Below, piece by piece: positions 6,769-10,820 of a stretch of DNA of 64,000 nucleotides (its first letter is position 1; every line of letters starts with the position of its first letter). The position numbers and the translations under genes are program-made. The stretch is from Nitratidesulfovibrio termitidis HI1 (GTDB lineage: Bacteria > Desulfobacterota > Desulfovibrionia > Desulfovibrionales > Desulfovibrionaceae): the NCBI RefSeq assembly GCF_000504305.1, contig NZ_KI632512.1, forward strand, positions 3,226,404-3,290,403, read 5' to 3'. The notes under the pieces were generated by a model, which was given only the letters and a program-made list of their open reading frames with translations, ran no database searches and was not told the origin of the DNA.

Positions 6769-7890
6769 ATGACCACCGACACCACCATGCACATCATTCT
6801 GCTGGACCTGGGGCGCGAGATGCGCGGGGGCCAGTTGCAGGTGTTCTACCTGGCCCGTGCGCTGCACCACAGTGACGGGTTTTCGGTGGTGGTGGCCTGT
6901 CCTGCGGGTTCGCCCCTGGCGCGCGAGGCGGCGGCGGCGGGCATTTCCGTGTTGCCGTTGCCGGGCCGCCGGTCGTGGAGTCCGCGTGCGTTGCTGGCCC
7001 TGCGGCGCGAGGCGCGCGGCCACTCCAGGGTGGTGCTGCACACCCACGACGCCCGTGCGGCCAGCCTGGGCGCGCTGTGCAAGGGCACATGGGGGGCGAA
7101 GGTGGTGCTGGTGCACACCCGGCGGGTGTCCTATCCGCTGGGTCGGGGCCTGAGCCGCCGCAAGTACCTGGCGGCGGACGCGGTGGCGGCGGTCAGCGCG
7201 GAGACGGGCGGCGTGCTGGCGGCGGCCGGACTGGACCCGGCGCACATCACGGTGATCCATTCCGGCATTGATCCCACCCGCTACTTTCCCCGGCGCGAAC
7301 GCGGCGACAGCCGCTTCGTGTTCGGCATGGTGGGCGCGCTTACCCCGCAGAAGGGACACACGGTGCTCATCGAGGCGCTGGCGGCCTTGCAGGCGTACGA
7401 AACCGTGGACGCGGAGGGCGATGTCGGCGGCCCGGACGGTGCCCCCATGCCTGCCTGGGAGGTGCGCGTGGTGGGCGAAGGCCCGCTGTTCGGCACCCTG
7501 CTGGACCGCGCCGACGAACTGGGTGTCTCCTCGCGCATGGCCTTTCTGGGGCGGCAGGACAGCCGTCGCATGCTGCCCGACTGCGATGCGCTGGTGGTGC
7601 CATCCGTGCACGGCGAAGGCAGCAGCGGGGTGATCAAGGAAGGCTGGGTCACCGGGCTGCCGGTGATCTGTTCCGGCCTTGCCTCCAACCTGGAACTGGT
7701 GCGCGACGGCGAGAACGGTCTGGCGGTGCCCCCCGGCGATGCCGAGGCGCTGGCCGAGGCAATGCGCCGCGTCGCCACGGATGCCACCCTGCGTGAACGC
7801 CTGACTGCGGGCGGCACGGCCAGCGTCGCCCACTATACCGATGCGCGCATGGCAGAAGCCTACATGGCCCTGTATCGCCGCCTGCGGTAG
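6769..7890 (+). CDS. Family 4 glycosyltransferase (GT-B fold)
   Basis: A 373-residue protein with a GT-B architecture. The N-terminal half has RGGQ near residue 22 and a helix-turn-strand pattern typical of acceptor domains. The C-terminal half (from about residue 180) has the linker SGIDPTRYFPRR, FGMVGALTPQKGH and the EX7E-type motif HGEGSSGVIKEGW near 283. The family transfers nucleotide-activated sugars, often for lipopolysaccharide or other surface glycans. Two starts are possible, ATG 6769 or ATG 6787; neither has a strong ribosome-binding site. No other surface-glycan genes adjoin it, so the acceptor is unknown. Confidence 0.87.
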   Translation: MTTDTTMHIILLDLGREMRGGQLQVFYLARALHHSDGFSVVVACPAGSPLAREAAAAGISVLPLPGRRSWSPRALLALRREARGHSRVVLHTHDARAASLGALCKGTWGAKVVLVHTRRVSYPLGRGLSRRKYLAADAVAAVSAETGGVLAAAGLDPAHITVIHSGIDPTRYFPRRERGDSRFVFGMVGALTPQKGHTVLIEALAALQAYETVDAEGDVGGPDGAPMPAWEVRVVGEGPLFGTLLDRADELGVSSRMAFLGRQDSRRMLPDCDALVVPSVHGEGSSGVIKEGWVTGLPVICSGLASNLELVRDGENGLAVPPGDAEALAEAMRRVATDATLRERLTAGGTASVAHYTDARMAEAYMALYRRLR

Positions 7891-8127
7891 CATCCCCGCC
7901 GCCCGGTGGATACCTTGCCCGGCGGCGTCGCATTTTCCAACATCCTGCCATTCGGAAATCCCGTAACGTTCCGGCAGGGCTGCGCCTTGCCCGGCGGTGG
8001 CGCCGCGCCCTTTGCCCCGCACCCGATTCGGCCCGATTCGGCCCGATATGGACCCGATGCGGGCCATGTCCGCGCCGCGCTTTCCGGAAACGCCATGCCC
8101 ATTGCAGCATGTTCTCAGCCTGCAAGT

Positions 8128-8143
8128 GCATACTGCTGTATGC
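8128..8143. other. Small inverted repeat in gene-free gap
   Basis: The gap 7891-8337 has no gene that I can support. It contains a weak GC hairpin just after the glycosyltransferase stop, a short tandem GATTCGGCCC run near 8025-8048, and this GCATAC-TGCT-GTATGC palindrome. The palindrome could be an operator or chance. Confidence 0.25.
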
Positions 8144-8337
8144 GCAAAAGGGGTGTTCATCGATTGATGCGTACCATGCAGCGCCGTGGGGATATCTATG
8201 GTTCTCGACACGGGGTTGTTCCACATGATGTGCGTGGTGCCGTGCGCCCTTGCCGGGCATGCCGTGCTGCAATTACCAAGAGCCATCCTGGTTCGCATAC
8301 CTTGTGCCAAAGCGCCAAAGGTAGGGTTTGCCCGCAG

Positions 8338-8366
8338 TGACACGGGGGCACGGCGCGGTATAGATA
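8338..8366 (+). promoter_or_regulatory. Candidate sigma-70 promoter for small peptide
   Basis: TGACAC (8338-8343) and TAGATA (8361-8366) are spaced by 17 bp, about 30 bp upstream of the start codon at 8398. Both hexamers match the consensus moderately. The geometry with the downstream ribosome-binding site and terminator makes it plausible; it is not proven. Confidence 0.4.
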
Positions 8367-8397
8367 CACCGGAAGTGAGCCGCGAGGGGGATTCTCC

Positions 8398-8463
8398 ATG
8401 ACTTGGGTGTTCATGATCGTGGCGCTGGCGGTGCTGGTCATCCTCATCGCCCGCGACCGGTGA
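8398..8463 (+). CDS. 21-residue hydrophobic membrane peptide
   Basis: ATG at 8398 opens a 21-codon frame ending at TGA 8461-8463. The peptide is one continuous hydrophobic helix (MTWVFMIVALAVLVIL...) followed by a charged ARDR tail, so it should insert once in the inner membrane. A strong ribosome-binding site GAGGGGG lies at 8384-8390, 7 nt before the ATG. A candidate promoter is at 8338-8366 and a 19-bp perfect hairpin at 8521-8562. This is the layout of a dedicated small-protein transcript. It might be a small regulator of a membrane complex or a type I toxin-like peptide; no family is recognised. Confidence 0.5.
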   Translation: MTWVFMIVALAVLVILIARDR

Positions 8464-8520
8464 TGCCCCTGCGGCAGCCGTGCGCCAGCGGCGAAACGGA
8501 TACGGAGAGGGCAGGGATTG

Positions 8521-8562
8521 CGAGAAAGGGGGCGGACGAGTCATCGTCCGCCCCCTTTCTCG
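8521..8562. terminator. Perfect 19-bp hairpin
   Basis: CGAGAAAGGGGGCGGACGA (8521-8539) pairs fully with 8544-8562 around a GTCA loop. It lies 58 nt after the small peptide stop and ends in CTTTCTCG on the plus strand. It probably ends that transcript, although the U-run is weak. Confidence 0.65.
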
Positions 8563-8689
8563 CGTACGCTACCGCCGGTCCTGCGGCGCGTGGCGTACGC
8601 CGCCACGCAGGGGCAGGCGGCATTGACTGCCGTCGTCAGCGCCGGAGTGGGCGTGCCTTTCCCCCGTCCTGCAGGGGCATCCGCAAGTG

Positions 8690-8723
8690 ACAGGGGCCGG
8701 ACGAGTCATCGTCCGGCCCCTGT
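8690..8723. terminator. Hairpin between small peptide unit and nrfA end
   Basis: A 15-bp perfect stem, ACAGGGGCCGGACGA with its complement, closes the same GTCA loop as the hairpin at 8521. It lies about 55 nt beyond the nrfA stop and probably serves as that gene's terminator on the minus strand, although there is no clear U-run on that side. Confidence 0.6.
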
Positions 8724-8776
8724 TGTCGTTTGTCGTCAGTCGGCGCTGCGGAATGTCCGCCACGCCGTGCGTCCGG

Positions 8777-10351
8777 CTAGCTGGCCGGGGCCGCGGCGGG
8801 TGCGGGCGGCGGGATCAGCCTAGTCTGGCCGTCCCACACGCGCGGCGCCTTGGGCAACAGCGGAATGTACTTGAACCACTTGTGGGTGGCCATGTGGGCC
8901 GGGTCCATTTGCAGTTCGCGGCTGTGCTTCAGGATGGGCGGCACAATCTTGTGGATGTCGCCGTCCAGGTCCTTGGCGGTGGTGAAGGCCGCCGCGCGGA
9001 TGGCCACGTCCACCGCCTTCTGGCTGTACTGCTGCGACTGGGCCAGGGTGTTCAGGGCCTTGGTGGGGTTGTGGAAGCCCACGCTGTTTTCGGCGGAGAC
9101 GAGATCCCAGAAGAACTGGCCCTTGCGGCACATCTGGCGTGCCTCGATCATCAGGTCGTCGTAGTCGGCGGGCTTGGGCCCGGTGTATTCGGCGGCCATG
9201 CGGATGGCCTCGTGCGCCTTCACCGAAATGTCCTGGGCCACCATCAGCTGTTCCCACACCTTGTTCTGGGTGAACAGCACCCGCTGGCGCAGGTAGTCGG
9301 GGGTCTTGTCGGTGTGGCACTGGCGGCAGGCGCGCAGGTCCGGGTCCTTCAGCGGCGATGTCCAGTGGTGGTTGGACATCTTCTTCTTGCCGTCAAGCCG
9401 GGTGTAGGCCATGTGGCAGTCGGCGCAGCTGACACCCGCGGAGCCGTGCACGCCGTTGATCCACGTTTCGTATTCCGGGTGCTGGGCCTTGAGCATGGGG
9501 GTCTTGGACACGGGGTGCACCCAGTCCACGAAGTTGCCTTCGAAACCCTTGGTCGTCGTGTTGCCGTGGGTCTTGTAGTACTCGAACATGTCTTCGGGGT
9601 CGAAGCCGTTGGCCCACGGGAAGATGGGCTTCTTGGCCGGTCCCAGTTCCTTGTCCGCGAAGTAGTATTCCACATGGCACTGGCCGCAGACCAGCGCGCG
9701 CTTTTCGTTGCGGGGCAGGTCCTTGAATTCCTTGCCCTGCGACTTCAGGTAATCTTGCAGGGGCACGCTGTACAGGCGCAGTTCCATGGTCTGCGGTTCG
9801 TGACAGTTGGCGCAGCCGATGGTGTGGTCGTCCACGTCCAGCTTCTGGCGGAACTCGTGAAAGTCCTTGGCCCAGAAGCTGTCCCCGTATTCCTTGACCC
9901 ACTCGGTCATCTTCGGCGTCTTGCAGTTCCAGCAGGTGGAGGGCAGGCCCGCCTTTTCGCTGTAGTTGTTCAGCCGGTCGATGTTCAGGATGTCCTTCAC
10001 CGCGTAGGTGTGGCCGCGCGCGGCGCGGTATTCGTAGCTGAAGGGATACCCCAGCCACAGGTTCTTCAGGTACGGCTGGGCGTGCTTGTACCCTTCGGGC
10101 AGGGGATTGACGTTGTCGTTCTTGTTGTACGGCACCGAGCCGCCGTATTCGGTCATAATCTGCGATTCGTTGTTGCGCAGGAAGGTCTCGTAGTGCAGCG
10201 GAAATTCCGGCTTGAAGGCGGAATTCTTCAGTTCATCGGTGGAAAGCTTGGTCTTGTAGGTGGGCGTCATGGGTTCCGAAGGTTCGGAACAGCCCGCCAG
10301 CACGGCGAGCGCCATGGCCATCAGCGCGACGAGAAGGCGACGGCTAGACAT
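8777..10351 (-). CDS. nrfA: Cytochrome c nitrite reductase catalytic subunit
   Basis: A 524-residue pentahaem enzyme reducing nitrite to ammonium with six electrons in the periplasm. The catalytic haem site CWNCK (about residue 140) has the diagnostic lysine, followed by four CXXCH sites: CANCH, CGQCH, CADCH and CRQCH. The N-terminus is a lipoprotein-type signal with LAGC. ATG at 10351 is preferred because GAAGGAG lies 8 nt upstream; a GTG at 10360 sits too close to that site. The start overlaps the end of nrfH by 8 bp, so the two are coupled. In sulfate reducers NrfHA protects against nitrite, which poisons sulfite reductase. Confidence 0.97.
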   Translation of the reverse strand: MSSRRLLVALMAMALAVLAGCSEPSEPMTPTYKTKLSTDELKNSAFKPEFPLHYETFLRNNESQIMTEYGGSVPYNKNDNVNPLPEGYKHAQPYLKNLWLGYPFSYEYRAARGHTYAVKDILNIDRLNNYSEKAGLPSTCWNCKTPKMTEWVKEYGDSFWAKDFHEFRQKLDVDDHTIGCANCHEPQTMELRLYSVPLQDYLKSQGKEFKDLPRNEKRALVCGQCHVEYYFADKELGPAKKPIFPWANGFDPEDMFEYYKTHGNTTTKGFEGNFVDWVHPVSKTPMLKAQHPEYETWINGVHGSAGVSCADCHMAYTRLDGKKKMSNHHWTSPLKDPDLRACRQCHTDKTPDYLRQRVLFTQNKVWEQLMVAQDISVKAHEAIRMAAEYTGPKPADYDDLMIEARQMCRKGQFFWDLVSAENSVGFHNPTKALNTLAQSQQYSQKAVDVAIRAAAFTTAKDLDGDIHKIVPPILKHSRELQMDPAHMATHKWFKYIPLLPKAPRVWDGQTRLIPPPAPAAAPAS

Positions 10352-10820
10352 CGGCGGCACTCCTTCTGGCTATGGGCAGCTTGGGGGTATGGGGTACGTG
10401 GCGGTGGCAGTCGGTGCAGTACTTCTTGGTTTCCATGGACACGGTGGCGGTGGTGGCCACGTGGCAGCGCCGACAGTTGGCCTGCACCACGTCCCTGGTT
10501 TCCCCGCCGGGGTGAATCAGGTCGGGGATGGTGCCAAGGGTGGTCGAATAGATGTCGCGCGTGCCTTCCTTGGCCTTGAAGGGCAGCTTGGCCGCCAGGT
10601 TGTGCGGCGCGTGGCATTCGTTGCACGCGAATTTCGCGTGCGTGGAACGCTTGTGGGTCAGCGCCGCCTCGGCCATGGAGTGACAACTGCCGCAGAACAG
10701 GGCCTGGTCCGTGGCAGTCATGGCCAGGGCCGCGCCTACGGTGACGGCAACGCCCGCCAGCGCGGCCAGGAGCATGATGCGCCATGGCCGGCCGGTGGAG
10801 TTGCTCCGCAGAGCATGCAT
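10344..10820 (-). CDS. nrfH: NrfH quinol dehydrogenase, tetrahaem cytochrome c
   Basis: A 158-residue NapC/NirT-family membrane cytochrome that takes electrons from menaquinol and passes them to NrfA. It has one N-terminal membrane anchor (about residues 14-34) and four haem sites: CGSCH, CNECH, CRRCH and CTDCH. The number and spacing fit NrfH rather than NapC. The start ATG at 10820 is preceded by a strong ribosome-binding site (AGGAGGAGG). It is the promoter-proximal gene of nrfHA, and about 700 bp of noncoding DNA separates it from the divergent glutamate synthase operon. Confidence 0.96.
   Translation of the reverse strand: MHALRSNSTGRPWRIMLLAALAGVAVTVGAALAMTATDQALFCGSCHSMAEAALTHKRSTHAKFACNECHAPHNLAAKLPFKAKEGTRDIYSTTLGTIPDLIHPGGETRDVVQANCRRCHVATTATVSMETKKYCTDCHRHVPHTPKLPIARRSAADV

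Follow-up and report, generated by a model that had tools for sequence, protein, structure and literature searches.

A 21-codon frame for a putative single-span membrane peptide, conserved beside nrfA in the genus Nitratidesulfovibrio

Introduction

Does the gap between a glycosyltransferase-like gene and nrfA hold one more gene, of only 21 codons? The question is raised by a 64,000-nucleotide stretch of DNA (the window, G000:C1:3226404-3290403) from a genome that consists of one contig of 4.26 Mb. The glycosyltransferase-like gene (6769-7890, plus strand), a label read from its own sequence, and nrfA (8777-10360, minus strand), which matches solved NrfA and is transcribed toward the gap, border an interval (7891-8776) in which a promoter-like pair, a Shine-Dalgarno sequence (SD), a 21-codon frame and a perfect hairpin are found. 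The initial annotation had seen in these four elements a complete transcription unit at 8338-8562 for an independent small membrane peptide, possibly a type I toxin or a subunit of a membrane complex. The four elements are present, but the conserved unit starts about 40 bp upstream, at 8297, and is without a T-run after its hairpin.

The reading preferred here, to which a probability of roughly 0.6 is given, is that the unit is a gene of its own, under regulation, whose product is a microprotein crossing the inner membrane once; so far it has been seen in Nitratidesulfovibrio only. This would be a well-delimited very small membrane gene of one genus that has no counterpart in the curated family libraries searched, whether of proteins or of RNAs. 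With its operator-like site and its 3' segment both conserved, how it is expressed and regulated can be tested directly in sulfate reducers.

The reading frame and its conservation

The peptide MTWVFMIVALAVLVILIARDR is encoded on the plus strand at 8398-8463 and has one likely membrane span: the 15-residue hydropathy maximum is 3.45 and the peptide is long enough to cross a membrane once. The SD (GAGGGGG, 8384-8390) lies 7 nt ahead of the ATG at 8398, and both the ribosome-binding site and the hydrophobic frame first described thus stand. At hydropathy 2.6 the frame is the sole SD-led hydrophobic short ATG frame in the window. Among 1000 dinucleotide shuffles of the gap, such frames appeared twice at hydropathy 2.2 and never at 2.6 or 2.9. 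Frames like this one are thus very rare in shuffled sequence, and conservation is what lifts the unit above chance. No known family was recognized: the best Pfam match of the peptide (E 1.6, 8.9 bits) is below the cut-off of 26.4, and NCBIfam gave no match to it.

The unit is present in seven of the eight Nitratidesulfovibrio genomes, that is, in all seven assembled loci. The eighth genome (G003) was left out: one of its contigs breaks off within the glycosyltransferase gene, of which it encodes the first 64 residues, and another ends 16 bp past nrfA. Preservation of the frame in 7/7 assembled loci supports the independent small membrane peptide gene that had been claimed. Absence of the frame from relatives had been named as what would refute the claim; this test was run and the claim withstood it, at genus level only. 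The peptide is 100% identical to the window copy in four congeners, 95% in G004 and 90% in G007. Every element of the unit is conserved. The conserved block starts at 8297 and spans a palindrome, a box, the leader, the frame and 36 nt past the stop; about 500 bp to the left of the palindrome are not alignable, and to the right of the hairpin some members align in part. The synteny is fixed, with the glycosyltransferase before the peptide frame in 6/6 congener loci and nrfA after it; the neighbouring nrfA is present in all seven congeners at 94-95% identity. Farther left of the glycosyltransferase, in loci whose sequence extends that far, lie genes that we take to be asd-like (2 loci) and ilvE-like (3 loci).

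The frame is invariant at 57 of its 66 positions, and the ATG, the SD and the stop are kept in 7/7 genomes. For nrfA in these seven genomes the mean is 57.6 invariant per 66 positions, so that the frame behaves like an ordinary gene. Six of the nine variable positions are synonymous and the remaining three give conservative replacements (I7V, V14A, A18V). The expected share of peptide-altering changes is 72% when all changes are counted and 67% for transitions (binomial P 0.017 and 0.042, respectively). This suggests a purifying pattern, with modest support because the nine positions come from related genomes that are not independent of each other. Readthrough of the UGA stop as selenocysteine was considered and rejected, as the alignment shows that most post-stop changes would alter codons and that indels come after. 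The predicted 5' leader (8366-8397, plus strand; 21/25 positions invariant from AAGTGAG to the ATG) and the 36 nt past the stop (30/36) show roughly the conservation of the frame itself, which coding alone does not account for.

Upstream elements

The block opens with an operator-like palindrome, ATACCTT-N14-AAGGTA (8297-8323), exact in 6/8 genus genomes (G000, G001, G002, G005, G006 and G007); G004 has two mismatches and the G003 site is not assembled. It runs into a conserved 26-bp box, AAAGGTAGGGTTTKCCCGCAGTGACA (8317-8342, plus strand), which is invariant at 25/26 positions in seven genomes and ends in a -35-like GTGACA (8337-8342). Together with a -10-like TATAGA (8359-8364), the latter makes a sigma70-like pair, GTGACA-16-TATAGA (8337-8364, plus strand), with 9/12 consensus bases. 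The promoter-like pair first noted is thus there and conserved: 9/12 is reached in 6/7 genomes, whereas G004 has TGTAGA and is absent from the scan listing. The spacer is 16 in the window genome and 15 in G006 and G004, and none of the 14 bases between the box and the -10 region is invariant in the seven-genome alignment. A strict promoter scan, in which a T is required at the last -10 position, found no promoter in 7600-9400; the -10 here ends in A, and the pair counts solely because it is conserved.

The box is found once in its own genome at up to three mismatches (25-base pattern). In 149 family genomes it was found in seven genus genomes at zero mismatches and in two others at three mismatches; with the reversed control there were likewise two. 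These two matches were rejected as regulon sites, being inside long open frames with no such ORF behind them. Away from the locus, the palindrome has only two-mismatch sites, fewer than the reversed pattern (31 vs 46 over eight genomes). Two of these sites recur in 8/8 genus genomes; in the own genome both lie inside open frames, one of which reads like ribosomal protein L6, as we presume, and both are taken as inherited coding sequence. As the box occurs once in its own genome and the palindrome is exact once per genome, no regulon or regulator can be named. A regulator acting on the palindrome and the box would presumably be dedicated to this unit.

From these elements we infer a gene that would be transcribed, terminated, translated, inserted into the membrane, regulated and provided with a partner. 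A transcription factor would bind the palindrome or box about 40 to 70 bp ahead of the start and would control a suboptimal sigma70 promoter with a 15-16-nt spacer. The resulting monocistronic mRNA of roughly 200 nt would extend to about the hairpin that precedes nrfA. Its translation would give 21 residues, of which residues 3-18 are predicted to make up a single helix that carries a Trp/Phe belt toward the N-terminus. The C-terminal RDR would stay in the cytoplasm, following the positive-inside rule. The peptide would most likely bind and modulate a larger membrane protein.

The 3' segment and RNA folding

The hairpin at 8520-8563 (plus strand) is terminator-like and perfect, as had been described, but its stem measures 20 bp instead of 19, around a 4-nt GTCA loop. 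Its T's (TTTCT) are inside the stem and GTACGCTACC comes after. Because no T-run follows the stem, termination at this hairpin is uncertain. A terminator scan did not report it and listed four other sites, including a hairpin at 8687-8726. In five other loci a perfect stem of 11-19 bp lies 56-63 nt past the stop; in G002 the hairpin is farther downstream and contains one G-T pair. A downstream hairpin is thus present in all seven loci.

The conserved 3' UTR (8464-8499, plus strand) contains CCCCUGCGGC, which could base-pair with the SD region, and then a small hairpin of the consensus fold, CCGU-GCGCCAGCGGCG-AACGG. In the RNAalifold consensus of the seven genomes, the SD region (GCCGC.AGGGG) is paired with CCCCUGCGGC just past the stop. 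The locus could also be read as a small RNA whose role is mainly regulatory, or as one with a dual function, acting by an SD-closing switch or by pairing in trans, with a peptide that is secondary or controlled by the switch. Such a reading would fit a non-coding 3' segment that is invariant at 30/36 positions, and 98.6% of cells do pair in the SD-3' UTR helix. It is also in keeping with the minimum-energy folds of the full-length RNA, in which the partner of CCCCU is a downstream AGGGG-type run in 5/7 genomes and the SD in one, CCCCU being unpaired in the last.

Covariation argues the other way. Seven of the ten pairs of the SD-3' UTR helix never vary and none changed on both sides; taking the two 3' UTR helices together, 0/18 pairs show a compensatory change in the seven genomes. 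Over the whole consensus fold, 1/46 pairs changed on both sides, and that pair is broken in 2/7 genomes; the covariation term is +0.34, slightly unfavourable. Depending on the genome, 1.4 to 19% of shuffles of the 3' segment attain the energy of the real 5'-3' duplex, and the share is below 5% in 2/7 genomes (G006 and G001). In the full-length RNA, the probability of pairing between the SD and the post-stop segment is 0.83 in G006, 0.18 in G004, 0.11 in G007 and 0.02 or less in the rest, so that only G006 exceeds 0.2. When the RNA is cut after the 3' UTR, the probability of SD pairing is 0.57-0.83 in G000, G001, G005 and G006, 0.19 in G002 and 0.01-0.04 in G004 and G007. The window's RNA has a folding z-score of -6.9, a low value that probably comes largely from the 20-bp hairpin.

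The pairing therefore appears to be mostly within what chance gives in GC-rich RNA, without covariation, and a switch is possible. The frame changes lean synonymous, and a scan of the whole window against Rfam at gathering score returned two tRNAs only, the peptide unit matching no Rfam family. With these points against it, a locus that is chiefly regulatory or dual-function RNA appears unlikely, although it is the alternative that survives best. A more specific form, a genus-specific dual-function RNA in which CCCCUGCGGC would switch partners, from the SD, which it closes, to an AGGGGC farther downstream, with folding or 3' processing gating the peptide and a dedicated one-site regulator controlling it, is a conjecture that we consider decidedly improbable.

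Distribution

A DNA search of 149 family genomes (E 0.001) gave any match in 11 genomes. Seven of these carry the full unit and all seven belong to the genus; the remaining four, from other genera, have matches of 25-33 bp. One full copy of the unit is present per genome in the genus, and four genus genomes have one further DNA match of 24-34 bp each. With the peptide as query, 348 order genomes gave seven genomes at E below 1e-5, one place each, all of them genus members, and no convincing homologue was found in the 340 other order genomes. A class-level search likewise took in 348 genomes, which seem to be the same ones. Three weak peptide matches (E 0.10-0.76) were rejected: L056 is antisense inside a frame of 457 residues, and L057 and L058 are in long open frames of 721 and 495 residues, respectively. 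A search with the RNA model R1, whose filters lose weak matches, found 7/348 genomes, all in the genus. Among 395 phylum genomes, some of them shared with the 348, the window's own genome was the sole match, with none in the 394 others.

A degenerate-pattern search of contigs gave four matches, in Nitratidesulfovibrio liaohensis XJ01, Desulfovibrio sp. A2 and two Desulfovibrio MAGs, and these coincide with the congener loci G007, G005, G001 and G002. The same pattern had no match in viral contigs; plasmids gave no match to the peptide and phages none to the DNA. A query of 21 residues loses distant relatives, and the restriction to the genus holds at the search sensitivity used. Among the titles listed in a literature search none was recognized as describing the peptide gene, which is not a claim of its absence from print; the available portions of PMC11124144 and PMC13370916 contain nothing on the peptide locus.

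Possible functions

A hydrophobic peptide of this length brings to mind the type I toxins, and the initial annotation had proposed one. On the chromosome, such a peptide would depolarize the membrane when over-made and would be held off by folding of its mRNA and by an antisense RNA. The length and hydrophobicity of the peptide are within the range of IbsC, ShoB and TisB (19, 26 and 29 residues, respectively; PMC8309996) and of ZorO (29 residues; PMC5668327). Like these toxins and DinQ (PMC3567139), the unit would combine a hydrophobic peptide of comparable length with a short mRNA and a ribosome-binding site that could be closed, which recalls the intrinsic control of such mRNAs (PMC8309996; PMC5668327). 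Contrary to type I toxins, however, it has only a weak minus-strand promoter-like pair and a fixed single-copy place. Among the top four pairs per strand, the best recurring one on the minus strand is ATGACC-17-GATCAT, with 8/12 consensus bases in 5/7 genomes, and the other 8/12 pairs were seen in single genomes each, so that no strong antisense promoter is conserved. The lack of phage and plasmid matches and the constant synteny within the genus also weigh against a toxin; fixed synteny is untypical of addiction modules. The proposal is thus unsupported and not favoured, and we regard a toxin as quite unlikely.

The position of the gene suggests another function, that of an accessory subunit of NrfHA, the nitrite reductase encoded next to it, since the peptide gene adjoins nrfA in 7/7 assembled loci. 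Small subunits of respiratory complexes are known in the TorE/NapE family (PMC6134056), whose small membrane protein genes likewise adjoin the gene of a respiratory enzyme. Unlike that family as described there, the peptide gene is convergent with its neighbour, on the opposite strand and with its own promoter-like pair, and no conserved link with nrfHA was seen outside the genus. No same-strand gene lies between it and the convergent nrfA, for which reason a leader peptide or attenuator was rejected as well. The box and the palindrome do not recur at nrfHA, and no motif is common to the unit and nrfHA. A second NrfA paralogue, 72% identical to that of the window, is encoded in the genome at G000:C1:1949920-1951446. 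Solved NrfA 2vr0 scores 888 bits against the nrfA of the window and 926 against the second paralogue, values that come from different programs.

The neighbourhood of nrfA was scanned for SD-led ORFs of 15-50 residues and hydropathy 2.4 or more, up to 1.5 kb away and less at contig ends, at 18 of 32 NrfA matches plus the seven genus loci, the other seven matches being left out. In 12 nrfA loci from other genera, and likewise at six copies of the second nrfA, neither an SD-led hydrophobic ORF nor a homologue of the peptide was found, except for one weak 45-residue frame at one of the 12 (L017). A role as NrfHA subunit is therefore considered highly improbable. The broader suggestion of a membrane-complex subunit is possible in itself, but no partner was found, the gene is convergent with nrfHA and homologues are missing at the other nrfA loci.

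The weakest alternative, that the frame arose by chance inside a DNA element conserved for protein binding or as non-coding sequence, would fit the conservation beyond the frame but has next to no likelihood given the near absence of SD-led hydrophobic frames from shuffles, the ATG, SD and stop kept in every assembled locus and the exclusively conservative replacements.

The preferred reading, a stand-alone single-span microprotein, has a parallel in Escherichia coli YohP, a stand-alone single-span membrane protein of 27 residues (PMC7549839). Both are very short proteins that would essentially consist of one membrane helix; the peptide described here differs in having 21 residues, in having been found in one genus only and in showing no sequence relation in the family libraries. 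Once its partner is identified, it would join the few peptides of about 20 residues whose task is known.

Recurring hairpins

The hairpins after nrfA (8687-8726) and after the peptide gene (8520-8563) have a common core, CGGACGAGTCATCGTCCG. Between the peptide gene and nrfA, the congeners repeatedly have hairpins of the form GGCCGGACG-N-CGTCCGGCC. They look as if a local terminator sequence had been copied or converted. At locus L011 (G002), past the peptide stop, a GGGGCAGAGCCCGAGAGAAATGGGCCGGA-like stretch is tandemly repeated with few changes ahead of the hairpin.
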